Shown: in pieces, positions 1-31,341 of the stretch
How positions within the stretch are numbered: the stretch's first letter is position 1
Layout: each line of letters begins with the position of its first letter
Source: a virus
Reading direction: 5' to 3' (one strand)
Virus record (IMG/VR): IMGVR_UViG_3300032265_000802
Location: 1 to 33,503 of that record
DNA length: 33,503 nucleotides
Translations under genes and position numbers: made by a program
The notes under the pieces: generated by a model
The model's database searches: none
Told to the model about the DNA's origin: nothing
The model's input: only the letters and a program-made list of their open reading frames with translations

Positions 1-2419
1 CATCGCTATCTGTAAGTGTGTTAAGTGTGCGCGTATAAGTACGTGGGTAATAATTGGCTACACTTTTTTGGTCTTGTACAGAAATTAAAGTGCCACCAGT
101 TTGTTTTACGTTTATGTCGTTTAACACATAAACAGGGTCGTAATTAATAAGAAGGTTTGCACCGTCATAAGGGCTTTCATTAAAAGTAACATTGTTACTA
201 CCGCTTAATGTTGCGTACAGGTTTTGGCTAACAGTAATAATTGTTCCAGTTACGTTGGTTACATAACTGCCAACAACTACGCCTGTGCCAGTAACTAATT
301 GTCCAGCTGTAATGTTAGTTGCGCTAGATACGGTTATTTGATTTTGTCCACTTGCGCCAGTACCCGTAGTTGTAATAATTGGTAAATCTCCAAATACAAC
401 TTTAGGAACAATTTTTTGCAATCTATTCCATCTGTCTTTAAAAGTTGCATAACCAGCACCATCAACATACCAAGTACCATTTTCGTTATCGGCAACATCT
501 TGTATGTAGTCCGCCAAACTTACGCCATTGGTAGTGGTATTTTGCATAAAAGATTTACCATAATCTGATTGATATGGTAAGTATTTCATTCCAGAATAAG
601 CGTTTACTATGTCTTTAAAACGATTGCCAGTTGATTCACCATACAAAGCCAATCTTCCAACTGAATTGTATTTGTCTGAATTTATACCAACACTTGTACT
701 GCTACGGTGAATTGTAAAATTAGAAACTTTGTAATTGTTTGCTACCGCTAAACCTTGCAACATAATTGCTGCAAAAGAAATTGATGTGGTGCTACTACCA
801 CTAGCAGTAGTAGTGTGTTTAACATTGTCGGGTGTGTAATTTGAAATAGTAATAAAATAACTAGACCCATCCCATTGCAAATTTACCGAAACAAAATTCC
901 AACCATCGGGCAAAATTGAAGTAGCCGTTGCGGTCTGGGCTATAAGTGTTGCGCCAGCGTTATCGTTTTGATGAAGCACACAATAAAGACCATTAGAATT
1001 AATGTAAACACCAAATGTAGGGTATGTTGATGTGCTTCCAGCATTTAATCCAGAAAACGCTTGCATTACTAAATAATTGCGCCCAGCCGTAATCGTACTT
1101 GTGTAATTAAACCAAAAACTAAATGTAAAATTATTAACACCGCTTGCAAAATCAAGGTCATTAATGCTGGAGTTCCAAAGGTTAGTACCACCAGTACCGC
1201 CAAGTTCATAACTTATTTGCGCACAAGTATTACCGCTTCCAAGTATTCCAGTTACAGACGAGTCATTACCAAAAGTTGGTGGTATAGCCGTTCCGTAAGT
1301 CCAAGGAACTAAAGGGGCTTGATTATACAAACCAGAGTTATAGGCAGATGTTGAGCCAGATGATTCGCCTAGTGTGTAATAATAAACAGCCGTAGAAGTA
1401 TCTTGTAATATTAATGCTTCATAAAGGTTAGTTAAAATGTTTTGTGACATAGAAGCAATTGCATCCGTAGCTACCATGTTTACTTGCCCACGGTTAGGTG
1501 CTTGGTATGTCTGTGGGTAACGCTCTATGAATCCATTAAACAAAGAATAGATGGTAGGGCCGTTGGTGTTGTAGGTGGATACGGTTGCGCCAAATTCTAC
1601 TTGCACGTTATCTACATAGTTATACCCACCATTGTTTGCGCCTTCAATGCTTATGGTAATTTTGTTTGTTTGTGGCGTAACAGTTGTTTTGTATTGAGTA
1701 AAACTAGATGCGCTTACCATTGCTTGTGTAGATAAAATTGAGCCATACGCGCCACCATCTCGTATAACTAAATTATTACCAGCCGCGCCACGAAAATATA
1801 AAGATACGGTAATTTGTTTGCCACTAACTACTGGCACATCTAAACACAAATGGTCTGGGTGAGATGAGAAAAAATTAAAAACTAATGAATAAGTGCCAGA
1901 TACAGAAATACCGCTTACAACATCCAATGCACCGGGGGCTGGGTAATTAAGCAAATACCAGTTGCTAATAGAACCTAACTCAAAATCGCTGTCGTTTGCC
2001 CCAACGGACACGCGGCTATCGCCATAAGTACTAGGCGCGGTACTAGGTATTGCTGGTTTTAGGTTTGTGTCATTAAGTATGTTGCCTGTTAATGGGTAGG
2101 CACAGTTGATAGCAACCGGGCGGTACGGTAAAACGTCTGGGTAAAAGGCGCTAGTGCTGTTGTTGGGGTCAAACAAACCGTCAGTATTATCTACGGCTAA
2201 TTGACATTCACCAGACTCAATACGGCCCAATTCATAAGTGCGCCCACGCCGGGTGGTAAAGGAATAAGCGCGGCTTGTAATGTTTGTACCAAGTGAAGTT
2301 ACCGTTGTGTCAGCTGGATTATTAACGTTTGATTTAGCAATTAAGTTTAAGTACCAATCGCTATTAGCTTTAACTTGCGGCGCATACGAAATGCCCACAT
2401 TTGGTAAGTCACGTGCCAT
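1..2419 (-). CDS. Minor tail protein with LamG-like module (3' end outside window)
   Basis: This is an open frame of 806 codons running off the left edge; ATG is at 2419-2417 and shares one base with the tape measure stop (TAATG). The first 110 residues resemble the N-terminus of actinophage minor tail proteins: a segment reading ELGRIESGECQLAVDN followed by GLFDPNN and YRPVAINCAYP. Residues about 145-255 look like a carbohydrate-binding-type beta-sandwich (starts DSDFELGSISNW). Residues about 300-520 look like a LamG/concanavalin-type lectin fold (VYYYTLGESSGST, FTFSFWFNYTS, GWNFVSVNLQWDGSSY). A small repeat-like beta segment (GQNQITVSSATNITAGQLV) follows near residue 690. It lies directly after the tape measure gene, the usual place for distal tail and host-recognition proteins. 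The domain calls are by eye; glycan binding is inferred. Confidence 0.75.
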   Translation of the reverse strand, partial: MARDLPNVGISYAPQVKANSDWYLNLIAKSNVNNPADTTVTSLGTNITSRAYSFTTRRGRTYELGRIESGECQLAVDNTDGLFDPNNSTSAFYPDVLPYRPVAINCAYPLTGNILNDTNLKPAIPSTAPSTYGDSRVSVGANDSDFELGSISNWYLLNYPAPGALDVVSGISVSGTYSLVFNFFSSHPDHLCLDVPVVSGKQITVSLYFRGAAGNNLVIRDGGAYGSILSTQAMVSASSFTQYKTTVTPQTNKITISIEGANNGGYNYVDNVQVEFGATVSTYNTNGPTIYSLFNGFIERYPQTYQAPNRGQVNMVATDAIASMSQNILTNLYEALILQDTSTAVYYYTLGESSGSTSAYNSGLYNQAPLVPWTYGTAIPPTFGNDSSVTGILGSGNTCAQISYELGGTGGTNLWNSSINDLDFASGVNNFTFSFWFNYTSTITAGRNYLVMQAFSGLNAGSTSTYPTFGVYINSNGLYCVLHQNDNAGATLIAQTATATSILPDGWNFVSVNLQWDGSSYFITISNYTPDNVKHTTTASGSSTTSISFAAIMLQGLAVANNYKVSNFTIHRSSTSVGINSDKYNSVGRLALYGESTGNRFKDIVNAYSGMKYLPYQSDYGKSFMQNTTTNGVSLADYIQDVADNENGTWYVDGAGYATFKDRWNRLQKIVPKVVFGDLPIITTTGTGASGQNQITVSSATNITAGQLVTGTGVVVGSYVTNVTGTIITVSQNLYATLSGSNNVTFNESPYDGANLLINYDPVYVLNDINVKQTGGTLISVQDQKSVANYYPRTYTRTLNTLTDSD

Positions 2420-4293
2420 TAGATAAGACTATTCGATGTTGCTAACCCGTTAGCTACGTTACGGCGGTTATTAAGTAACGAATAACGTTGGGTGGCGCGG
2501 AATACAACTTGCCCATCAATAACAACTGGTACTTCTATAAACCCTCCAAAGTTACTTGATTGTGGCCCGGCTTGGCGCGTTTGGGAAGCCAACCAAGAGT
2601 TAGCGGCTGTAAAGGATGAGTTGGCTTTAGCAATTTCCTCATTTAGTTTTGCTTGCGCTGCGGCTGCCTTAGCCGTCTCATCTGCAATGTTTGCTAACTG
2701 GTTTGTAACTTCCTTTTGGATTTTAGCCTGTTCAGCTATAGCCGCGTTTAATGCCACCACCGCCGCCGCGTGTGCCTTGGTTTTTAAGGTTTTCTTTTCC
2801 TCTGCCTGTGCAGCTGCTACTAGCGCTTTAGCTTGTTCTAGGAATGGCAAAGCCGCGCTAAGTTTATCTTGGCTAGTAGTGGCGCTAGATTCCGCTAAAG
2901 CAAACTGTGCATCAATAGTGCCCCGTTGCCCAGATAAGGCTTTAATTTCGGCGGCATACTGGGCTAACAATGCGGCTGCCCGTTGCTTGGCTGTTAATTT
3001 TTTAGTCTTAGTTGTGCTTGTGGTGGTTTTAGGCGGCTGACTATCTAGTGGTAAAGCTTCGGGCGCGGTATGGTAAACGGCTTCTGGGCCACCTTGTGCT
3101 GCTACGTAAACACCATTAGGCAATGCTGACTGGTGGCTATCTATGTACTTTTGCGCTTCATACATAATGCCACCAATAAGGGCGGCTGCGCCCACACCTA
3201 ACAATGGATTAGCGGCAAACGCTTCTGCTATTCCAGTAGTAATTGCGGCTGCTTTTACTAGGTTTAAGGCAACAACTAAACCTTTATAGAGCACAATGAT
3301 TGTATTTATAGCGGCTGCAACTTTATTAACAGCCCACATAGTAACCATAACCGCGGCGGTTATTTCTAGTTCCCTATGAAAACTAATTACATAACCAATA
3401 ATACCTCTAATGCTTTGCCCCCAGTTGTAGGCGGCTAAAGCAGAACCGGACAAGCTATCGGATAAGCCACCCTTGCCAGTTAGCCCATCAACAAAATCTT
3501 TTATTCTAGGAATAATTGTATCGGTTGTGTACTTTACTAACTCTGTCATTTGTGGCATTAACTCGCGCCCAATGGTTAGCTGTACACCTTGTATAGCCGC
3601 GTGTAATTCCTTTTGTTTTAATGAGTATTCTTTAACGGCGGCTAGGTCAGCGCCAGATAAAGTTAAGCCAAGTTTGTCAGCCGTGGCAGACAATTCTGCA
3701 ATACGTGCGCTACCTAAACTAAGTAGAGGTAGCATTTCTGTAGCGCCACGCCCAAACGCTTTAACTGCTAAGGCGGTGCGTTCTAAGCCCGGTGGCATAG
3801 CTGCAAAACGGTCTGACAAATTCATTAACAGTTGGCTAGTGGGAAGTATTGCGCCGTTTACATCACGGTAGCTTATGCCTAATGATTTTGCTTGTGTATC
3901 GTTTTTGGCTAAATGCCCAGACAAAATACGGAAACCGCGTACTAACGTGTCGCTAGATACGCCTACTTCCTCAGCCACAAAACGCAACCGCGACATTTCT
4001 TCGGCGCTACCACCAAGAACACGTTGCATACTACGGGTTTCATTACCCACAGTAGTAAATGCAGTTAAGGTATCTTTAGCAAAACTTAAAGCCTTTTCGC
4101 CAAGTTGCATAAATGTTTGACCCATAACCGTACCAGCGGCAATAGTTTTAGCAGATAATTCTTTAGTAGCATTACCAGCGCTATTAGTATGCGCTTCTAA
4201 ACTGGTAAGTTTTTCTATAGCGGTCTTTATGCCAACTTCAAGGTTTTTAACGTTAGCTTGAACTTCAAGCATAATTGGTGGAACATCAGCCAC
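2419..4293 (-). CDS. Tape measure protein
   Basis: This 624-aa protein has the profile of a short siphovirus tape measure. It has a helical N-terminus, a region with LRFVAEEVGVSSDTLVRGFRI and alternating Ala/Leu helices, hydrophobic stretches at about residues 305-375 (VISFHRELEITAAVMVTMW, TTGIAEAFAANPLLGVGAAA) and an Ala/Lys/Gln-rich coiled-coil C-terminal third. Tape measures set tail length and are ejected ahead of the DNA. The start is GTG (MADVPP) with GAGG upstream. It lies directly after the frameshifted tail assembly chaperone, which is the conserved siphovirus order. The position and composition make the call firm, although sequence similarity between tape measures is always low. Confidence 0.9.
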   Translation of the reverse strand: MADVPPIMLEVQANVKNLEVGIKTAIEKLTSLEAHTNSAGNATKELSAKTIAAGTVMGQTFMQLGEKALSFAKDTLTAFTTVGNETRSMQRVLGGSAEEMSRLRFVAEEVGVSSDTLVRGFRILSGHLAKNDTQAKSLGISYRDVNGAILPTSQLLMNLSDRFAAMPPGLERTALAVKAFGRGATEMLPLLSLGSARIAELSATADKLGLTLSGADLAAVKEYSLKQKELHAAIQGVQLTIGRELMPQMTELVKYTTDTIIPRIKDFVDGLTGKGGLSDSLSGSALAAYNWGQSIRGIIGYVISFHRELEITAAVMVTMWAVNKVAAAINTIIVLYKGLVVALNLVKAAAITTGIAEAFAANPLLGVGAAALIGGIMYEAQKYIDSHQSALPNGVYVAAQGGPEAVYHTAPEALPLDSQPPKTTTSTTKTKKLTAKQRAAALLAQYAAEIKALSGQRGTIDAQFALAESSATTSQDKLSAALPFLEQAKALVAAAQAEEKKTLKTKAHAAAVVALNAAIAEQAKIQKEVTNQLANIADETAKAAAAQAKLNEEIAKANSSFTAANSWLASQTRQAGPQSSNFGGFIEVPVVIDGQVVFRATQRYSLLNNRRNVANGLATSNSLI

Positions 4294-13164: not shown

Positions 13165-14022
13165 TTAATAGTAAAGATAAATAACACCAGCACCACCTGT
13201 GCCACCTGTGCCCGAGTTATTACCTGCACCGCCGCCACCGCCGCCGTCTCCACCTGCGCCGCCTGTATTGCCTGATGCATTGCTGCCAGCACCGCGATAG
13301 CCACCACCACCACCACCTGCACCAAAAGTTATGCCAGTACCAGAACTTCCTGTACCACCTGCAAATAAATCCCCAGTACCACCATTACCGCCAGTACCAA
13401 CAGCAGTTGTATTAACGCTTCCACCACCGCCACAAATTAAACCGTTTGCCCCATTGCCAGCAGTACCGTTTGTAAGATTTGAGGTGCAACCACCACCACC
13501 GCCTGTGCAAACTCCCGGACCAGAAGTACCAACGCCAGATTGTGCCGTGCCGCCAAATGTTGCGTAACCAATAAAACCACTTGAACCTGTGGGCGCACCT
13601 GTATAAGAAATTCCACCTGCTACACCTGAGTTATTACCAGAACCACCACCGCCACCTGCGCCGCCTATTTGGGCTGCGCTGCCAGCCGAACTACCGCAAC
13701 CGCCACCGCCACCACCTGCAAGTACCATTCCAAAACTTGTATTTCCACCACTACCACCTGCGCCACCACTACCGCCGCCACCTGCCCCTACTACGCAAGT
13801 TGTGGCTATAAAAGTCCAACCCATAGAAATACCACCTGCACCGCCACCACCTGCGTACGTAGACGAAAATCCGCCACCGCCACCGCCACCAATACATACC
13901 GCGTATACGCGCTGTATTCCATCTGGTATTGGTACTGAACCGCTTGCGGTAAGTGTTTGGCGCAACTGTAACCCGTATGGGGTGTCGCTAAAAGATGAAT
14001 TGTTGTAAATAGATGCGCTCAT
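13165..14022 (-). CDS. Glycine-rich fibre/adhesin-like protein 1
   Basis: This is a 285-aa protein. A short N-terminal anchor (PYGLQLRQTLTASGSVPIPD, then VYAVCIGGGGGGG) is followed by about 220 residues dominated by Gly with Ser, Thr, Asn and Ala, with many poly-Gly runs. It ends GGAGVIYLYY, a beta-strand end typical of this family. Similar Gly-rich domains form polyglycine-II sandwiches in phage receptor-binding proteins such as the gp38-type adhesin of phage S16. It is paralogous to the next upstream gene. Adsorption or surface display is inferred. AAGGATAATT precedes the ATG. Confidence 0.75.
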   Translation of the reverse strand: MSASIYNNSSFSDTPYGLQLRQTLTASGSVPIPDGIQRVYAVCIGGGGGGGFSSTYAGGGGAGGISMGWTFIATTCVVGAGGGGSGGAGGSGGNTSFGMVLAGGGGGGCGSSAGSAAQIGGAGGGGGSGNNSGVAGGISYTGAPTGSSGFIGYATFGGTAQSGVGTSGPGVCTGGGGGCTSNLTNGTAGNGANGLICGGGGSVNTTAVGTGGNGGTGDLFAGGTGSSGTGITFGAGGGGGGYRGAGSNASGNTGGAGGDGGGGGGAGNNSGTGGTGGAGVIYLYY

Positions 14023-14030
14023 AATTATCC

Positions 14031-14984
14031 TTAATAAAAAATGAAAAGAATACCTTTGCCGCCCAAAACGCCAGTACTAGTTGTGCCGCCGCCACCACCA
14101 CCGCCGCCAAGACCGCCTACGCCACCAGTTGCACCAGTAGCATTTCCACCGTTGCCAGCAATTCCACCGCCACCACCACCTGCACCATTTGCGTTTGTAC
14201 CGCTAGTGCCTGTGCCACCCGTTGAGACTGTGCCCGTACTAATGTTAAATCCATTGCCACCAGAACCGCCTTGTCGTGTGCCTGTGCAAACGCTTTGAAC
14301 GCCACCACCGCCACCGCCTATAAGACCTGAACCACCGTTACCAGCCGTTGAAGCACCCGTAAAAATTCCTCCGCGAGTTACGCCGCTACCGCCACCGCCA
14401 GAAATACCATTGCTTGCGCTTGCACCTGTAAGAGTTGCACCAGCTGTATTTTGTGTGCTACCAGCACCAGCCGCGCCAGCACCCATACCGCCAGTAGTTT
14501 GCGTAGCAACAGCACCGCCGGGTTGACCGTACATATTGGTATTACCTGCACCACCGTTACCTGCACTAGCACCGCCACCTGCGCCAGCAATTCCCATTGA
14601 GCCACCGGGGTTTCCAATAACAGATGAGCCATAACCACCGCCACCTGCAAGTAGATGTCCATAACGGGTAAAGCCACCGTTTACAGCTGCGCCAGTACCA
14701 GCCGCGCCTATTGTGCAAGTTGAATATGGCAACGTCCAGCCCCACGCAAGTCCACCTGCGCCACCACCAGCGTAAGCACCGCCACCACCGCCACCTGCAA
14801 GAATTGCATACACCCAAGTAATGCCGGCAGGGATAGTTACTGCACCAGTACTTGTAATTGTTTGCCGTAATTGTAAGCCGTGTGGCAAAATAAAAGACGT
14901 TTGAGAGTTAGGTGTAAAACTACTGCCTTGCACACCTGTTGATACAGGGTTACCTGCTTGCCCTCTGCGGTTTGGATTAGCCAT
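14031..14984 (-). CDS. Glycine-rich fibre/adhesin-like protein 2 (paralogue)
   Basis: This 317-aa protein has the same plan as its neighbour: PHGLQLRQTITSTGAVTIPA, VYAILAGGGGGGA, a long Gly-rich body and a hydrophobic end GGKGILFIFY. The shared anchor and matching order of Gly runs point to a tandem duplication, with the Gly-rich bodies diverged. The N-terminal 30 residues differ from protein 1 and may attach to a different partner. The stop is 9 nt before the next gene, and the start is coupled to the preceding gene by TAATG. Confidence 0.75.
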   Translation of the reverse strand: MANPNRRGQAGNPVSTGVQGSSFTPNSQTSFILPHGLQLRQTITSTGAVTIPAGITWVYAILAGGGGGGAYAGGGAGGLAWGWTLPYSTCTIGAAGTGAAVNGGFTRYGHLLAGGGGYGSSVIGNPGGSMGIAGAGGGASAGNGGAGNTNMYGQPGGAVATQTTGGMGAGAAGAGSTQNTAGATLTGASASNGISGGGGSGVTRGGIFTGASTAGNGGSGLIGGGGGGVQSVCTGTRQGGSGGNGFNISTGTVSTGGTGTSGTNANGAGGGGGGIAGNGGNATGATGGVGGLGGGGGGGGTTSTGVLGGKGILFIFY

Positions 14985-15355: not shown

Positions 15356-16393
15356 CTATCCGAACACTTGCATTGAAATTACAGCTTGGTCTGTATCGTA
15401 AATTGCATTAGCACCTGCTGGTCCAGTAGGTCCAGTAGGTCCAGTAGGTCCAGTAGCGCCGTTAGTACCGTTAGTACCGTTAGTGCCATTAGTTCCAGTT
15501 GCGCCCGTTGGACCAGTTGGACCAGTAACAGTTGAAGCTGCGCCCTGTGGTCCGGTAGGACCGGTAGGGCCTGTGACCGTAGATGCAGGACCGGTAGCGC
15601 CCGTAGGACCTGTAACCGTACTTGCCGCGCCTTGTGGACCAGTTGGGCCAGTTGGCCCAGTTACGGTTGATGCAGGACCAGTTGGCCCGGTTGGGCCTGT
15701 AACGGTTGAAGCAGGACCGGTAGGACCTGTAACGGTGGAAGCTGCGCCTGTAGGACCTGTTGGACCAGTAGGACCAGCCACAGTAGAAACTGGTCCAGTT
15801 GGGCCTGTCGGTCCAGTGACAGTGGAAGCCGCGCCCGTTGCCCCTGTAGGGCCTGTTGGTCCTGTGACCGTACTAGCTGCACCAGTAGCACCCGTTGGTC
15901 CTGTTGGTCCAGCCACAGTTGATGCTGCGCCTGTAGGGCCCGTAGGTCCCGTAGCACCAGTAGCACCCGTTGGACCAGTTGGTCCAATTGTGCCGTTAGT
16001 TCCAGCACTACCCGTAGGTCCTGTTGGCCCAGTTACACCCTGTATACCTTGCGGTCCAGTAGGGCCTGTAACAGTGGAAGCCGCCCCGGTAGCACCAGTA
16101 GCACCCGTTGGACCAGTTACAGTACTTGGTGCGCCCGTACTACCAGTTGGACCTGTAACGCCTTGCGGTCCTGTTGGACCAACACTGCCAGTAGGTCCAG
16201 TTACATTTGATGCTGCCCCCGTTGCACCAGTAGGTCCTGTTGGTCCAAGCGGTCCAGTTGGGCCTTGGATACCTTGGATACCTTGGTTGCTTACAGTAAC
16301 CGCAATAACGTTTTCAGTAGTAGTTAATGCAGTAACGCCATCAATGGTGGTTACAGCTACAACAGTTTCAGTAGTAGTTATTTCACCAGCCAT
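15356..16393 (-). CDS. Collagen-like fibre protein
   Basis: This is a 345-aa protein. Residues 1-35 form a Thr/Val-rich head ([20 protein letters not shown]), then about 290 residues of Gly-X-Y triplets, mostly GPT and GAT, end in a short cap ([18 protein letters not shown]). The triplet run is broken many times by a 7-residue unit of the type GAAS(T/N)VT, which would put flexible hinges into a triple helix. Thr in the Y position is characteristic of bacterial and phage collagens and is the O-glycosylated residue in Bacillus BclA. The protein should trimerise into a virion fibre. The antisense frame is also long and open, as expected of such repeats. Confidence 0.85.
15414..16293 (-). repeat. 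Tandem Gly-Pro-Thr coding repeats
   Basis: The DNA here is a degenerate tandem array of 9-nt units coding GPT/GAT, with a longer unit coding the 7-residue interruption recurring roughly every 30-80 nt. Copies differ mainly at third positions. Such arrays expand and contract by recombination, so fibre length may vary between relatives. Confidence 0.8.
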
Positions 16394-17165: not shown

Positions 17166-17314
17166 TCTTCACCAATGTTATTTTCTTTAGCAAAATCATT
17201 TAAGCGGCGGTCAAGTTCTTGTTTTGCTTCAAGAATTTCATCATTTGCCCCAATAATTAAAGCAAAAATACTTTCATCTGACCAGTTAATAGATTCAACA
17301 AATTCTTTATTCAT
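17162..17314 (-). CDS. Small acidic helical protein, candidate immunity partner
   Basis: This 50-aa frame (MNKEFVESINWSDESIFALI at the start, ending ENNIGEE) begins on the base that ends the metalloprotease-domain gene (TAATG). It is acidic and predicted mostly helical. Like the preceding domain it is AT-rich compared with the surrounding genes. A small gene coupled directly behind a toxin-like C-terminal domain is the usual place for an immunity protein, but no family is recognised, and an assembly role is equally possible. Confidence 0.7.
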   Translation of the reverse strand: MNKEFVESINWSDESIFALIIGANDEILEAKQELDRRLNDFAKENNIGEE

Positions 17315-18921
17315 TATTTCCATCCAAATTCTTTTGCTAATCCAATGGCTAACTTGTTTTCTGTTAATCCCTTACTTAAATGCCATTCGGCAAACATTTC
17401 TGCATACAATTCAAAAGTATTTTCACGCGCGTATTGACTGCGTAAAGCACCTTTACTTTGATTTATTACATCTCGCATACGTTGATTACGTTCTTTTATG
17501 GCAAAAGTATCAGACTCTTTTGTGTCTATTGTGTGACCCCATTCATGGGTTAATGTATATTTCCATTTTTCTATTTCTTTTGATACTGGCATAAAGCGTT
17601 CAGTTTCATTAAATTTAACATCCGCAAAAGCTGACGGTGAAAAGAAAATAGTATCGCCACCTGAATGTGTCCATGCTTTTACACCAATACCGCTTGAATT
17701 TCTCAATGGTGCTACAACAACATTTATAGATTCTTTAGGTTGAATTTTTTGCAATTCATCTACATATTTCATTAACTTCATTTGGTCTGCAATGGAAAAT
17801 TCTTTTATTTCATTTAATCCATAGCGTTCAAATGTAACTTTCATACCGCCATTTGCATAAACGGTAGGTGCGCCTTTTTCGGCTATTACTTTATTCATTA
17901 CGGCTTCAATGTCAGACCGCATCTTTGTGAACCCATAAGTATTTTTTAAATAGTCATAAAAAATTTCTTTTACTTGTGTTTCATCAGCTTTAACCCATTC
18001 ACCGGGTTTCCATTCACGGGCGGTTGCTTGTTCAAATGTTTCTGTTTCAACTGTTGGCGATTCATCCACAATGCCATCGTGTATAACCGTATCTTCACCC
18101 TCTGGTGATACTTCAGTAACATCGCCGCTAGTGTCTGTGTTGTCTGTCTGGTCTGTGGTGTCAGTGGTATCTACGCCGCTTTCAGGAATGACAGGTAACG
18201 TGGTGCAAATACAGTTAGGGTGCGCTGGTGGGTATTCGTCACCGCTAGAAAACGTGTCACCTAATGTGATTATTTCGCCGTCATTAGGTTCACAAATTTC
18301 ACACGGGTCTGCGCCCTGCCACTCTATTTGTTCAATACCAGCATCTTTGTAATCGCTTATAGCCGCTTGGTTTAATGCGTTTGAGGTTTCAGTACGCGCT
18401 ATAACCATTGCCCGTAATGGGTCGTTAAGCACATCGTTAATCTCACTAGCTATGTCTCTAGGGCTTAACCCTTGGTCTAATCCACTGGCTAAAGCTGTGC
18501 CAATACGGTCTAGGGTAGTGGCATCCAGTTGGTCTATTAAGGCTTTATTGCCGTTTAGTAAATCAGCTAACCTGCCCTGTGGGTCTACAAGCGCGGCTGC
18601 GGCTGCGTTACCGGGTTGCCATGTAGACCAATCCAAGCCAACGGTAGCGCCTAAATCCTGTTGCGCCATGGCTTGCCCCATTACCCAACCAGTAGCGTGT
18701 GTTTGGGTTACAGCGCTTGCAAGTACCTTGTTGTTAAAGGCAATGTTTACTTTTAACCATTCACGTGCGCTGTTTGTACTTGTTGTACTTTTTATGTGGT
18801 TATGCGCCGCCCATTTAGCTGCAACCGCATCTGCATCAACACTAACCCGTAACCCTGCTTGTATTAACAGGGTATTTTGGTTAAGTAACCTGTGCTTTGC
18901 CGCTTCCCTGCGGCTTACGCT
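17314..18921 (-). CDS. MuF-like head protein with C-terminal HExxH metalloprotease domain, read by -1 frameshift from portal
   Basis: The open frame from 18921 to 17314 is 535 aa, but no ATG, GTG or TTG exists in its first 80 codons; the first ATG is at 18681. It is therefore probably entered by a -1 slip at the end of the portal gene (fusion of 613+535 aa). The first part has the MuF pattern: VIARTETSNALNQAAISDY, then DPCEICEPNDG and PPAHPNCICT. A Thr/Asp-rich linker follows. The last 230 residues hold THEWGH (His379, Glu380, His383 counted from the ATG) and NTFELYAEMFAEW, giving a possible third zinc ligand Glu, as in HExGH zincins of the anthrax lethal factor type. This C-terminal part is AT-rich. 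Initiation at 18681 alone would lose 80 well-formed residues. Confidence 0.85.
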   Translation of the reverse strand, partial: SVSRREAAKHRLLNQNTLLIQAGLRVSVDADAVAAKWAAHNHIKSTTSTNSAREWLKVNIAFNNKVLASAVTQTHATGWVMGQAMAQQDLGATVGLDWSTWQPGNAAAAALVDPQGRLADLLNGNKALIDQLDATTLDRIGTALASGLDQGLSPRDIASEINDVLNDPLRAMVIARTETSNALNQAAISDYKDAGIEQIEWQGADPCEICEPNDGEIITLGDTFSSGDEYPPAHPNCICTTLPVIPESGVDTTDTTDQTDNTDTSGDVTEVSPEGEDTVIHDGIVDESPTVETETFEQATAREWKPGEWVKADETQVKEIFYDYLKNTYGFTKMRSDIEAVMNKVIAEKGAPTVYANGGMKVTFERYGLNEIKEFSIADQMKLMKYVDELQKIQPKESINVVVAPLRNSSGIGVKAWTHSGGDTIFFSPSAFADVKFNETERFMPVSKEIEKWKYTLTHEWGHTIDTKESDTFAIKERNQRMRDVINQSKGALRSQYARENTFELYAEMFAEWHLSKGLTENKLAIGLAKEFGWK

Positions 18922-18927
18922 TTTTTT
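18899..18927 (-). promoter_or_regulatory. -1 frameshift signal joining portal and MuF module
   Basis: On the minus strand, A_AAA_AAA (18927-18921) in the portal zero frame is followed by a 6-nt spacer that contains the portal stop TAA (18917-18915), then GCCGC (18914-18910), loop AGGGAA and GCGGC (18903-18899), a perfect 5-bp GC stem. The loop AGGG could also pair with a downstream CCCT to make a pseudoknot. Heptamer, spacer length and structure all fit known -1 frameshift sites. Confidence 0.82.
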
Positions 18928-20759
18928 AGTAAGCCATCGGCTAACGCTTTAACTAAATCAAAGTCTTGTTTAGCAGCGCGGTTTAACACATCAGCATTTA
19001 ACTTATCTAATGCAAAGAACTCAAAGTCTCGTTCGGTGTTACCTTTCTTAGCCCACTTTAGAAACGCCTTAACCTCTGCCTGTGCATCAACTTGTGCGTT
19101 AGTAGCGGTTGGTTCTGGTAAGTCACCACTAGGGGCTTCCTCTGGGGTAATACCGCTTGCCGGTGCTTCTGCCGGGGTAGCGGTGTCAGTACCAAAGGCA
19201 ACTACGCCATCTGGGGTAATAAAGAACGTGTTAGCGCCGGCATGAATCATAGGCAGGTCAGCGTATGGGGAATCAACTAACGGCAAACCCATTTCAGCCT
19301 TAGCTTGGTTTATGGTGCGTTGGCCTGACTGCAGTTCAATAGAACGGCGCGTTGCACCCTCTGCGGTATCAGACTCGTTGCCTACGTTAAACCTAAATAC
19401 CAATTCACGTGGCATACCAAGGAACTTGTAACTAATGTCGCTTAGTTGGTCTTCAAGCCATTTAGTTAATGGTTCTGCACCTAGGCGCGAACCTGCTTCC
19501 GCTTCCCCTGCTTGGTGGCCAGAACCGCCTAAACCTTGTTTAGCGCTGTAGCCAATTTCGGTAGGCAACACACCATAGTGACCAGTAATGCCAGTAATGC
19601 AGTAGTTGTCAAACGTATCGTTAAACTTCTCGCTAAACCCGTTGTTATCTATTGGGTCTAATCCCGGTGGCAAAATACGTGCGCGCTTACGTTGTTCTGT
19701 CTGCCCTGCTAGGTCATCGTTAATAACGTTCTCATAAGCGCGTAATAGTTCTGGTGTTGCGGCAAATGAACCATCAGGCTTTAACCACATTTCAGGTGTA
19801 ACGCCATCGGTAAACTCTGCGCGTAACCATTGTTGGCGCTTAATGTAAAGGTCAGCTAGTGGCAGTGCGCGCTCAGTTGGGGAGAACCCATACGGTGTCC
19901 ACGTGCGGTGGTTGCGCTTTAAATAAATAAGTTCATCGGCAGAGTAACTACCGTCTTGGTCTGGGTCATCGCTGGTTGCTAGGAACTCGCCACGTGGGAA
20001 GCCGTACAAGATTTGCTGGTATGCCGGGGTGTTAGTACGTGGGTCTGGGCGCATACCTCTATCGTCTAATAGCGGTTTGATTGTTGAACCATCAAGAATA
20101 GTAAGGCTGTGCAAGTCACCCTTTAAGTCTGGGTGTGGGTAAATAGCCAGCGCATCCAGTACCAAGGTTTCCTCTATTGCCATAGATACCCAGTCTTTGA
20201 AACTTAAACCATTTATGCGGTCTGGTGTCTGCCAAAAGTCGCGCAACCGTGTTATTTCTGATTGGTACTTATCCCGTGCCTGTTGCATAGCGCGCACATC
20301 GTTGCCACCAAATTCGGCTGCAACCATTTCACTAGCGGAATCAGAAAAGGTTATATCCCATTCCATGCCTGAAACTTTGGATTTTAGTACCTCAATGCAC
20401 CGGCGCAAAATGTCTATCTGGTCAGCTGCGGTGCGCAATACCTGCCACGGTACTAAGCGGTTATCTGTTACCTGTATGTTCCATGCAACTGGGTATTCCC
20501 AGCGCCGTGGGTCTGGTCTGCCATCTTCCCCAATAGGGTTAATAGCCGCAGGTAGTAGGGGATTGTTAGGGCCAAACGGTACGCCGGCTAACCAAGGGTT
20601 GCGGTTTAGTGGTTCAAATACACCAGTGCTGTAAGCCTGTTGCGCTAGTGTGCTTAGTTCCTGTTGGGTAAACGGGGTAGCTTTAGCACCGGGCGGCAAT
20701 GATAGCGCCGTGCTTTTATCGGTATTGCTATTGCGGCGGAAGTAATCCCGTAGCGCCAT
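18915..20759 (-). CDS. Portal protein (short form; also N-terminal part of frameshift fusion)
   Basis: This is a 614-aa protein with HK97-type portal features. RRWEYPVAWNIQVTD opens the conserved part, followed by LRRCIEVLKSKVSGMEWDIT, DALAIYPHPDLKGDLHSLTI, LDGSTIKPLLDDRG, ELIYLKRNHRTWTPYGFSPT, and a C-terminal helical region with GSGHQAGEAEAGSRLGAE and QRTINQAKAEMGLPLVDSPY. It would form the dodecameric DNA channel at one capsid vertex and dock the terminase. ATG at 20759 follows the TerL stop by 2 nt. The 3' end carries the slippery heptamer, so a fraction of ribosomes should continue into the MuF-like frame. Confidence 0.92.
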   Translation of the reverse strand: MALRDYFRRNSNTDKSTALSLPPGAKATPFTQQELSTLAQQAYSTGVFEPLNRNPWLAGVPFGPNNPLLPAAINPIGEDGRPDPRRWEYPVAWNIQVTDNRLVPWQVLRTAADQIDILRRCIEVLKSKVSGMEWDITFSDSASEMVAAEFGGNDVRAMQQARDKYQSEITRLRDFWQTPDRINGLSFKDWVSMAIEETLVLDALAIYPHPDLKGDLHSLTILDGSTIKPLLDDRGMRPDPRTNTPAYQQILYGFPRGEFLATSDDPDQDGSYSADELIYLKRNHRTWTPYGFSPTERALPLADLYIKRQQWLRAEFTDGVTPEMWLKPDGSFAATPELLRAYENVINDDLAGQTEQRKRARILPPGLDPIDNNGFSEKFNDTFDNYCITGITGHYGVLPTEIGYSAKQGLGGSGHQAGEAEAGSRLGAEPLTKWLEDQLSDISYKFLGMPRELVFRFNVGNESDTAEGATRRSIELQSGQRTINQAKAEMGLPLVDSPYADLPMIHAGANTFFITPDGVVAFGTDTATPAEAPASGITPEEAPSGDLPEPTATNAQVDAQAEVKAFLKWAKKGNTERDFEFFALDKLNADVLNRAAKQDFDLVKALADGLLKKA

Positions 20760-20761
20760 TT

Positions 20762-22153
20762 TTACACTCCTAGTATGTGCGGCGTGTCAGCGTTCTCTAC
20801 TAACGCGTGTCCACATCCACTACAAACGCTGTAACTCTTAGGCATTGGTAGATTACAATTATCGCACCATACGGCTAGGTTCGACAAGTAGCCAACCAGC
20901 GCTGAGGTATCTATTAACTCAGTAGCAGCCCACACTAAGGCATCTAAACGGTCTGGTGATTTAGGGTCATCAGGTGTCCACGTGGTTAGTTGTGCTTCCA
21001 GTTTGTCTAGGTAGCCAACGTGATGGGCGCGGTTTTGCTCATAAAGGCTCGCCACTGGTTCGGCGCGTAGCTGCTTACCCCTAGTTGCGCGTACTGTCTT
21101 AACCCGTACATTAGGGTCTATTTGTTTAATAATGGTAGGTATCATGTCACCGCCGTTATTTACTTCCGCAACAATGGCATCCGCGTTATGTTCCCGGTAG
21201 GCATCTATAGCCCGTTGCGCCCAACCCATGGGGCTTGCCTTAATGGTGTAGTCAGCCAACACATACAAGCTACCTTGGTTATCCTTACCAGCCACCACAA
21301 TGCCAGTATCATCGCTATCCTCACCGCTAGTAACGGCTGGGTCTACCGCTACCACAATGCGTTGTAGGTCTACTGGGGCTTTATCTACCCGGTTGCGGTC
21401 TATGTTGTCCTGCAACCACAGTGCGCCCTCTGTGTCTTCTAGTATCTCGCCCTCTAGTTCTTGCCTACCCAACCTTGTGCCGGCGTACCGGGCTTGCAGT
21501 TCCACTAGCGCACTAGCAGCTAGGTTGGCTTTGTTTTCAAACGTGCTACCACGGGTAATAAACACCGTGCCATCCTCACGCTTAACAAGGTTGCGTACTA
21601 AGGGTTTGGGCTTTGGTGTGGTGGTAAATACGGTTTGTGGTTTCTCGCCTAGGCGTAAGCCAAACTGCAACTGGTCAAAGGCTTCAGGGTATTTCCATGC
21701 CGCTAACTCATCACCCCACGCACCGTGGAACTGTGGCCCACGTAAGCGCTCTGGTTCATCAGCGCTAAACAACTTAATACGGCTACCGTTAAGCAGAAAC
21801 AATTCACCCATAGACCTATTCCAGCCGTTAGGTTCACGCAATGCGCCATACCTACGTAGTACAGCTAGTAGTCCACTATCGCCCTCAACGCACGTATCAC
21901 GGGCATCAGCAAAGGTTGGCGCTACTACTGCCCAACGGCTTTTAGGTTGCTGTATGGCTTTCCACGCCAACCATTCCGCGCCTGTACGGGTCTTACCCCA
22001 ACCACGCCCACTAAGGATAAGCCAGATAGACCAATCAGTATTAGGCGGTAGTTGGCTTTCCCGTGCTTGTTGGTGTGTCCAAACTATCCGCGCCCCTGCT
22101 ATCCGCTGCTTGTAAGAGCTGGGCAAGACGTTCGACTTCTCTGTCAATTTCAC
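20762..22153 (-). CDS. Terminase large subunit
   Basis: This 463-aa protein packages and cuts phage DNA. ATPase: Walker A GRGWGKT at 49-55 and Walker B-like GAWGDE at 144-149, with TTTPKPKPLVRNLV as the coupling motif. RNase H-type nuclease: VVAVDPAVTSGEDSDDTG (Asp271), IVAEVNNGGDM (Glu330) and SPDRLDALVWA (Asp404). An additional C-terminal four-Cys zinc ribbon (Cys430, 433, 444, 447) is not part of the standard terminase. The GTG start at 22153 has GAAGG upstream and makes a 113-nt overlap with the small subunit gene; no later start keeps the full ATPase domain. Confidence 0.95.
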   Translation of the reverse strand: MKLTEKSNVLPSSYKQRIAGARIVWTHQQARESQLPPNTDWSIWLILSGRGWGKTRTGAEWLAWKAIQQPKSRWAVVAPTFADARDTCVEGDSGLLAVLRRYGALREPNGWNRSMGELFLLNGSRIKLFSADEPERLRGPQFHGAWGDELAAWKYPEAFDQLQFGLRLGEKPQTVFTTTPKPKPLVRNLVKREDGTVFITRGSTFENKANLAASALVELQARYAGTRLGRQELEGEILEDTEGALWLQDNIDRNRVDKAPVDLQRIVVAVDPAVTSGEDSDDTGIVVAGKDNQGSLYVLADYTIKASPMGWAQRAIDAYREHNADAIVAEVNNGGDMIPTIIKQIDPNVRVKTVRATRGKQLRAEPVASLYEQNRAHHVGYLDKLEAQLTTWTPDDPKSPDRLDALVWAATELIDTSALVGYLSNLAVWCDNCNLPMPKSYSVCSGCGHALVENADTPHILGV

Positions 22154-30834: not shown

Positions 30835-31028
30835 CATTAACCGAACAAGCCGAAGCCGTGCGTAAGGAAGTGTTAGCAGCAACGCGCGGTACTGAATTGC
30901 AATACCTTGTACTAAAAGCGTTAAGCCTGACAATGGCAGAAGCGTTTGATAAAGCATTTGATGAAGGCTGGGAATCGGCAATGGGCGAACTGGCTGTGCT
31001 AAAGGCAGGTAGTTATGGAGTTACCTGA
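30831..31028 (+). CDS. Small helical protein, 65 aa
   Basis: This 65-aa protein starts MTLTEQAEAVRKEVLAATRG. ATG 30831 overlaps the stop of the HTH gene (ATGA), and the end overlaps the WhiB start by 14 nt. It is predicted helical (LVLKALSLTMAEAFDKAFDE) and acidic. No family is recognised. It may act with the two regulators it is translated between. Confidence 0.7.
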   Translation: MTLTEQAEAVRKEVLAATRGTELQYLVLKALSLTMAEAFDKAFDEGWESAMGELAVLKAGSYGVT

Positions 31029-31341
31029 TTTTACAGAAGCAGCTTGTGTCAATGTTGCTACCGATTTATTCTTTCCAGAAACAGCAATAGAAAATGCTTA
31101 CAATAAAGAATGGCTACGTGGGTATTGCTACGGCTGTAAGTTATTTGAACCGTGCCTTGAGTACAGCCTAGTCGTAATGGTAGATGGTATCTGGGCTGGC
31201 AACGATGCACTAGACCGCCGGGCTATACGCCGGGCGCGTGGCACAAAGGCACAACGCTTAGAGCAATCTTTAGGCGATGTGTTTCAATCAACAACGCAAG
31301 GCGCAAAAGCGCAAAGACTGAAAAGAGCTAAACAAAAATGA
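31015..31341 (+). CDS. WhiB-like transcription factor B
   Basis: This 108-aa protein carries Cys11, Cys38 and Cys41 (GYCYGCKLFEP) and Cys47 (CLEYSL), the four cluster ligands of WhiB, then GIWAG at 58-62 in place of the usual G(V/I)WGG, and a basic C-terminus (RRAIRRARGTKAQRLEQ, ending KRAKQK). It differs strongly from the other WhiB here. Co-transcribed with the HTH protein, it is likely an early regulator acting on the host sigma factor. The changed GxWGG motif may alter that contact. Confidence 0.88.
   Translation: MELPDFTEAACVNVATDLFFPETAIENAYNKEWLRGYCYGCKLFEPCLEYSLVVMVDGIWAGNDALDRRAIRRARGTKAQRLEQSLGDVFQSTTQGAKAQRLKRAKQK

Follow-up and report, generated by a model that had tools for sequence, protein, structure and literature searches.

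The structural genes of a virus in IMG/VR (record IMGVR_UViG_3300032265_000802, positions 1 to 33,503; this whole 33.5-kb stretch is called the window here) lie on the minus strand in the order terminase, portal and MuF, and the junction between the portal and MuF genes has the features of a programmed -1 ribosomal frameshift site. A portal-MuF-cargo fusion would be produced here by a -1 shift at the slippery heptamer A_AAA_AAA, assisted by the hairpin that follows it, a reading to which we assign a probability of about 0.9 on the strength of sequence comparison. The window alone gives a weaker case, and the claim rests on the comparison with relatives.

The portal frame ends in CTA AAA AAA GCG TAA, and the heptamer in the portal frame, the 6-nucleotide (nt) spacer and the GCCGC/GCGGC stem-loop proposed in the original prediction were all confirmed at 18927-18899 on the minus strand (Table 1). 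The hairpin has five base pairs (arms at 18914-18910 and 18903-18899) and a 6-nt loop, with a predicted folding energy of -10.1 kcal/mol by itself; for the 36 nt 3' of the heptamer, the value is -12.0 kcal/mol (z -3.25). The MuF frame scores above the cut-offs of two MuF families, namely PF04233 and TIGR01641 (SPP1 gp7; 46.0 bits, cut-off 39.65), and the portal open reading frame (ORF) falls slightly under that of Pfam PF04860 (35.3 bits, cut-off 39.1). The family phrog_2662 covers portal and MuF together, and the two frames of the window match its positions 32-479 and 484-708, respectively. The predicted masses are 68.0 kDa for the portal and 126.9 kDa for a long product of 613+535 = 1148 amino acids (aa), in agreement with the approximately 125 kDa expected earlier. 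A search of the window against Rfam gave no match at gathering scores, and no tRNA genes were found.

Table 1. Features of the portal-MuF junction and its neighbourhood in the window
Feature	Coordinates	Strand	Remarks
Terminase large subunit	20762..22153	-	directly upstream of the portal gene; phrog_979, E 9.9e-40
Portal ORF (short, zero-frame product, 614 aa)	18915..20759	-	phrog_2662 portal protein, E 1.7e-54
Slippery heptamer A_AAA_AAA	18921..18927	-	in register with the portal frame
6-nt spacer GCGTAA	18915..18920	-	includes the portal stop codon (18915-18917)
Hairpin GCCGC-AGGGAA-GCGGC	18899..18914	-	immediately 3' of the portal stop; predicted frameshift stimulator
MuF frame (-1), 535 codons after the shift, then stop	17314..18921	-	open from the stop at 18951
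MuF-frame stretch of 80 codons with no ATG, GTG or TTG	18682..18921	-	conserved; helical in the model
First ATG of the MuF frame, unlikely start	18679..18681	-	codon 81 (AGC at 18921 = codon 1); model residue 83
MuF domain PF04233	18199..18507	-	residues 140-242 of the frame read from 18924; 50.5 bits
C-terminal metallopeptidase-like cargo region	17317..18036	-	model residues 298-537
HEWGH motif of the cargo	17533..17547	-	

Ribosomes translating the portal gene would encounter A_AAA_AAA and then the hairpin. Those that do not shift would stop two codons on and release the 614-aa portal, whereas those that slip back by one base, with the P- and A-site tRNALys re-pairing, would read on through MuF and the C-terminal enzyme domain and give a 1148-aa protein having the portal's N-terminal 613 residues in common with the short form. 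The long form would be the minority and would join the 12-subunit ring, and MuF and effector domains would thereby be placed inside the head in one copy or a few copies; from this we infer mixed portal rings, with the ratio of the two subunits, and hence the number that bear MuF, set by the efficiency of frameshifting. A_AAA_AAA is, in general, an efficient slippery motif and may be so here. The motif A_AAA_AAG is described as efficient in Escherichia coli in the portion of PMC4066793 covered.

Relatives (loci with L numbers) were taken from eight IMG/VR scans (best 80 loci each, of 443, 358, 582 and 547 in four of them) and one GTDB scan, which gave two loci. Junctions of the window's portal family were classed by hidden Markov model matches on stop-to-stop frames. 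From the 269 loci of this family, 46 without a portal match, 52 junction duplicates and 18 without a recognised MuF (14 of which end within 300 nt of the portal end) were dropped, which leaves 124 distinct junctions in the -1 frame, 22 fused in frame and 7 in which MuF follows a stop without a change of frame. The window clade is represented by 19 non-redundant sequences, the window included, all of them metagenomic contigs, and the near-copies L002, L082 and L094 are excluded from the 19-row statistics. In a quick portal tree, 18 of the 19 form one clade together with L002 and L094 (SH-aLRT, the Shimodaira-Hasegawa-like approximate likelihood-ratio test, 98), and the sister of this clade consists of 94 separate-gene rows; L089 is too short for the tree and contributes only 63 body codons to the heptamer test. 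Shared ancestry makes the p-values of these comparisons optimistic. The stop-to-stop portal frames of L014, L015 and L017 contain an extra stretch and reach 680-712 aa, as against about 600-634 in most kin.

By comparison within this clade, the slippery signal appears to be selected. An X_XXA_AAA heptamer stands at the portal end in 19/19 sequences while the identity of X varies, being mostly A_AAA_AAA but C_CCA_AAA in L004 and L090 and G_GGA_AAA in L009, L010, L011 and L013, where the portal frame reads Leu (CTA/TTA, CTC or CTG) and then Lys-Lys, Pro-Lys or Gly-Lys. An in-frame XXXAAAA occurs at one of 10,621 codon positions in the portal bodies, as compared with all 19 junctions, and a synonymous-codon test for slippery codons in all 19 gives a summed log10 p of -14.8 with the rows treated as independent, which holds only in part. 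An eighth A would join the two frames, and the break might be put down to a sequencing error in the homopolymer or to recent mutation of a gene fused in frame, given that the site is an A7 run and that in-frame fusions exist among the relatives. However, the same break is found in 18 further contigs from 13 different IMG sample numbers, the junction is unchanged in L002, the contig nearest to the window, whose MuF is 94.7% identical, and the C_CCA_AAA and G_GGA_AAA variants have no long homopolymer. Sequencing error is rejected on account of these variants, and error or recent mutation together are given practically no weight.

The comparison also points to a hairpin belonging to the window clade. 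Its position is common to 14 of the 19 sequences, in which 70/70 cells are paired; seven cells have both sides changed, two of the five pairs vary on both sides, and none of the 500 shuffles and none of the slid versions reaches the covariation score. Among the five without the shared hairpin, short GC stems of other kinds are present in L010, L011 and L013, and L012 and L016 have none that is clear. Folding 3' of the heptamer has a mean z of -2.41 across the 19 sequences versus -0.24 across 95 control windows.

The -1 frame downstream of the heptamer likewise behaves as a coding frame that is apparently selected. Conserved residues begin directly after the heptamer, from where 16 sequences align, and the ratio of non-synonymous to synonymous rates (dN/dS) over MuF codons 9-80 is 0.15, 0.06, 0.13, 0.12 and 0.44 in five of eight pairs; in the informative pairs, the 80 pre-start codons are apparently under purifying selection. 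Between the window and L002 (18207-18900), one synonymous change lies in MuF codons 9-80 and 19 in codons 80-240, a contrast that may reflect recombination, constraint near the junction or chance. A model of the MuF frame built on a 22-row alignment (mean predicted local distance difference test score, pLDDT, 75) places helices at residues 6-27, 32-42, 51-61 and 67-91, the pre-start 80 codons being helical with block pLDDT of 71-94. The helical MuF-type region of the original prediction is borne out by these helices and by the family matches, and the absence of ATG, GTG and TTG for 80 codons holds as well.

Absence of a start codon is the third feature brought out by comparison, and it bears on whether MuF might be a separate protein, made by re-initiation near the portal stop, at CTG 18870 or ATA 18864, or from ATG 18681. 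Separate expression is evidently the rule among the other non-fused rows (102 in -1 and 7 in the same frame), in 98/109 of which a start codon lies no more than 10 nt from the portal stop, mostly in ATGA or TAATG overlaps and also in GTGA; within the window clade itself a GTG overlaps the stop in L089, and L007 and L008 have a GTG at +14 and an ATG at +23, respectively. However, 18/19 sequences of the clade have no start within 10 nt of the stop, and first starts apart from that of L089 are scattered from +14 to +236. ATG 18681 falls within the last of four confidently predicted helices, the 20 nt that precede it contain nothing resembling a Shine-Dalgarno sequence, residue conservation starts well ahead of it, right after the heptamer, and re-initiation leaves both the heptamer and the paired hairpin unexplained. 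We therefore consider a separately made MuF very unlikely. Just one of the 98 rows with a start at the portal stop, L194, combines it with an XXXAAAN heptamer in the overlap, and the remaining 11 non-fused rows, which belong to other lineages, include 10 with XXXAAAN and L192 with C_CCT_TTT; the L192/L193 split is from one sample only and was not counted as support. Heptamer and start codon thus seem nearly mutually exclusive, as expected if each is an alternative route to MuF expression. Relatives keep both the heptamer and the missing start, as the original prediction asked of them, and neither the window's clade nor its sister contains a case of heptamer loss with a startless MuF frame persisting, because heptamer-less kin nearly always own an ATG, GTG or TTG at the portal stop. 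In a separate-gene subclade (L034, L035, L039, L042, L050 and L072), where MuF owns an ATG, the sequence T_TTG_GGG or T_TTG_GGA nevertheless stands 10 nt ahead of the portal stop.

The cargo had been called a metalloprotease, which it may be. It has the HEWGH motif, and for the C-terminal half of the model VIA-align gave a best Z of 8.4 (lugdulysin, M30) and ranks 1-27 were all zinc peptidases or leukotriene A4 hydrolase; membership of the anthrax lethal-factor-like family ATLF (PF07737) was rejected at 12.9 bits, far below the cut-off of 27.4. Foldseek against the PDB gave no match to the MuF-frame model at E <= 0.001, a PDB profile search gave no match, and VIA-align listed no MuF or portal structure, an absence that is uninformative. 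The cargo varies among the 10 window-clade MuF frames scanned: L015 has a zeta-toxin domain, L016 and L089 an ADP-ribosyltransferase and L010 a DRAT match below cut-off, and the other six are without a C-terminal family match. The layout, MuF beside the portal gene with a variable C-terminal effector, is that of MuF polymorphic toxins, and the slippery signal is apparently kept while toxin-like cargo is swapped.

Several observations weigh against the frameshift reading of the window clade. The heptamer-spacer-GCC pattern has one exact copy in the window, and at least one copy with up to two mismatches arises in 26/100 shuffles. Folding is weak in L012 (z -0.14), L016 (-0.61), L007 (-0.93) and L013 (-1.24). 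In the hairpin, the count of double-changed pairs and the count of pair types are both unremarkable (290/500 and 25/500 shuffles as high, respectively), three of the five pairs are invariant, and the stem doubles as protein-coding sequence. Three of the eight dN/dS pairs are uninformative, the synonymous rate being saturated in L008/L017 and the window/L002 and L015/L082 pairs having one change of each kind.

Slippery heptamers also occur, with apparently reversed polarity, in fused genes. In the in-frame fusions of the window's own portal family, XXXAAAA is present in the linker of 15/16 rows, as C_CCA_AAA each time, with 2.35 rows expected under synonymous reshuffling and 0/9,237 occurrences at body positions. 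Read from the first heptamer of the linker, the -1 frame ends in Tyr-stop in 14/15 rows (2.62 expected), and all 14 tails are of the form F-x-Y: RFAY, RFGY, RFNY, RFSY, RRFNY, RQFTY, RPFGY, RRSFTY and SIRRFDY (L096, L171, L172, L174, L175, L178-L182, L184, L186, L188 and L198, with L172/L174, L178/L179, L180/L181 and L182/L184 as close kin). A shift in this form would make a short portal, of which F-x-Y-stop is possibly a C-terminal signal; because the unshifted product is the long one, it is not necessarily the minority form in these genes. By comparison, the short tail of the reversed form seems to be selected; the data used for the reshuffling test of the Tyr-stop feature are those in which it was first noticed.

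Both forms occur in a second, distant group of portals, to which those of the Brevundimonas phages belong. From its 112 loci, 21 without a recognised MuF (6 of which end within 300 nt) and 19 that were duplicates or had no portal match were dropped, and the 72 distinct junctions are 41 in frame (fused), 31 in -1 (split) and none in +1. Among the split rows, 27/31 have XXXAAAN in the overlap (0.83 expected), and the zero-frame tail ends in Tyr in 16 of these 27 (GPRY, GPKY, GLRY, VTRY, AMRY, LHRY and SGY), ten of the 16 being close kin. Among the fused rows, the linker contains XXXAAAA in 21/41 (2.27 expected); a Tyr-stop -1 tail, read from the last heptamer of the linker, is present in 16 of the 26 with XXXAAAN (0.95 expected), for example SARRSFAY and SATRRFAY. 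Downstream folding in the fused rows has a mean z of -1.21 (29 rows) versus -0.15 in controls. A quick tree of 69 rows with weak deep support gives at least seven switches between fused and split. Among the 16 portals inspected of the 21 without a recognised MuF, XXXAAAN lies near the end in L274, L320, L344 and L348; L320, which is truncated where its contig stops, resembles a further split row.

The Herbaspirillum seropedicae AU13965 plasmid-phage (L366; NZ_CP034394.1, CDS 1501-3795, WP_139969266.1) has a fused portal-MuF gene annotated as phage portal protein only, in which a single X_XXY_YYZ heptamer stands in frame, an A_AAA_AAA near codon 497 of 764, followed in -1 by the tail SRPVY-stop. 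Four isolates whose portals are close to these, Brevundimonas Polewnik, Thermoanaerobacterium THSA-485A, Alicyclobacillus MMB025 and Arthrobacter Sonali, have in-frame fusions. No XXXAAAN heptamer was present in the linkers examined of Polewnik, MMB025 and Sonali, and that of THSA-485A has three, none with a Tyr end; no MuF was recognised in Thermus phiYS40 and Mycobacterium LittleE.

Some results count against the reversed polarity. L185 has no heptamer, and L269 has C_CCA_AAA with a 32-aa tail that lacks Tyr; because Pro-Lys is conserved, the per-row chance of a heptamer under synonymous reshuffling of the 16 main-family fused rows is as high as 0.36. In the second group, 10/26 -1 tails of fused rows and 11/27 zero-frame tails of split rows with a heptamer have no Tyr end, and 12/41 fused rows are without XXXAAAN even when the region is widened upstream, a post hoc step by which L326, L327 and L338 gained A_AAA_AAG.

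Split rows of the second group also lack downstream structure (mean z -0.03; 27 rows, mostly A runs). Together with the A7-A10 runs of many members, this would suit a process in which RNA polymerase slips on the A run and gives mRNAs with one A more or one A less, without any ribosomal shift. However, the C_CCA_AAA and G_GGA_AAA members hold four A's only and yet have the X_XXY_YYZ form, and the hairpin covaries in the window's clade. From these variants we infer that the slippage would be ribosomal; transcriptional slippage is rejected as the sole cause in the window's clade and is rated as highly improbable, somewhat below a separate MuF. Junction frameshifting is probably an old and general device of tailed phages, existing in two polarities, by which one gene would give two kinds of portal subunit in a set ratio. 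In the same probable reading, the short portal would have a selected C-terminal peptide, often F-x-Y-stop or R-Y-stop, and only some subunits would carry MuF and the effector.

The window contains two WhiB-family genes (PF02467; 27043-27399 on the minus strand and 31015-31341 on the plus strand), which suggests an actinobacterial host. Near the junction lie genes for a collagen-like G-P-T repeat protein (15356-16393) and two glycine-rich proteins (14031-14984 and 13165-14022), all on the minus strand.

Several known systems share parts of this arrangement. In dnaX, a -1 shift yields the shorter product, as it would in the reversed-polarity fused genes, although dnaX is a cellular DNA polymerase gene. 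Arthrobacter phage Sonali gp3, labelled 'portal and MuF-like fusion protein' and adjoined by the terminase, and other actinophage fusions likewise have portal and MuF in one polypeptide, but in a single frame, whereas the window needs a -1 shift and a free portal is also predicted. According to the portions of the cited articles covered, the portal-MuF gene neighbourhood and in-frame fusion are already known (PMC5576092; PMC7302621), the latter from Microbacterium subclusters EA3, EA5 and EA8 and cluster EB (PMC7302621). SPP1 gp7, too, is of the MuF type, belongs to the portal module and binds the portal, gp6 (PMC6316719; PMC5576092), but it is separate, unlike the covalently joined MuF proposed here. 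MuF polymorphic toxins have variable effectors, including metallopeptidases, and a MuF gene directly 3' of the portal, but the text of PMC5576092 (Jamet 2017) that was covered does not contain 'frameshift'. Programmed frameshifting has precedents in tail chaperones, tail tube and capsid proteins, where gpG/gpGT (-1), SPP1 17.1/17.1* (+1) and the T3, A2 and PSA capsid proteins are C-terminally extended structural or assembly proteins (PMC5009743; PMC6316719); these involve another gene pair, not the portal, and no toxin-like cargo is described in the portions covered. Neither 'portal' nor 'MuF' occurs in the covered portion of the large frameshifting review PMC5009743, and no report of a portal-MuF frameshift was found among the papers listed for the literature searched, with most subscription papers and all preprints outside it. 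Fusions and phage frameshifts are therefore each known, and the portal-MuF frameshift is apparently new.

Finally, it should be noted that, to our knowledge, how one or two MuF proteins end up on a 12-fold symmetric portal is an open point. For SPP1, one to two gp7 copies per capsid are cited in the covered part of PMC5576092. If the present reading is true, one gene giving both a short and a MuF-bearing portal would be a simple answer to the low copy number of MuF, and the dose of toxin-like cargo would be tied to a 30-nt RNA signal. In addition, many annotated genomes may miss products of this junction, namely a short portal from 'fused' genes and a long one from 'split' genes.

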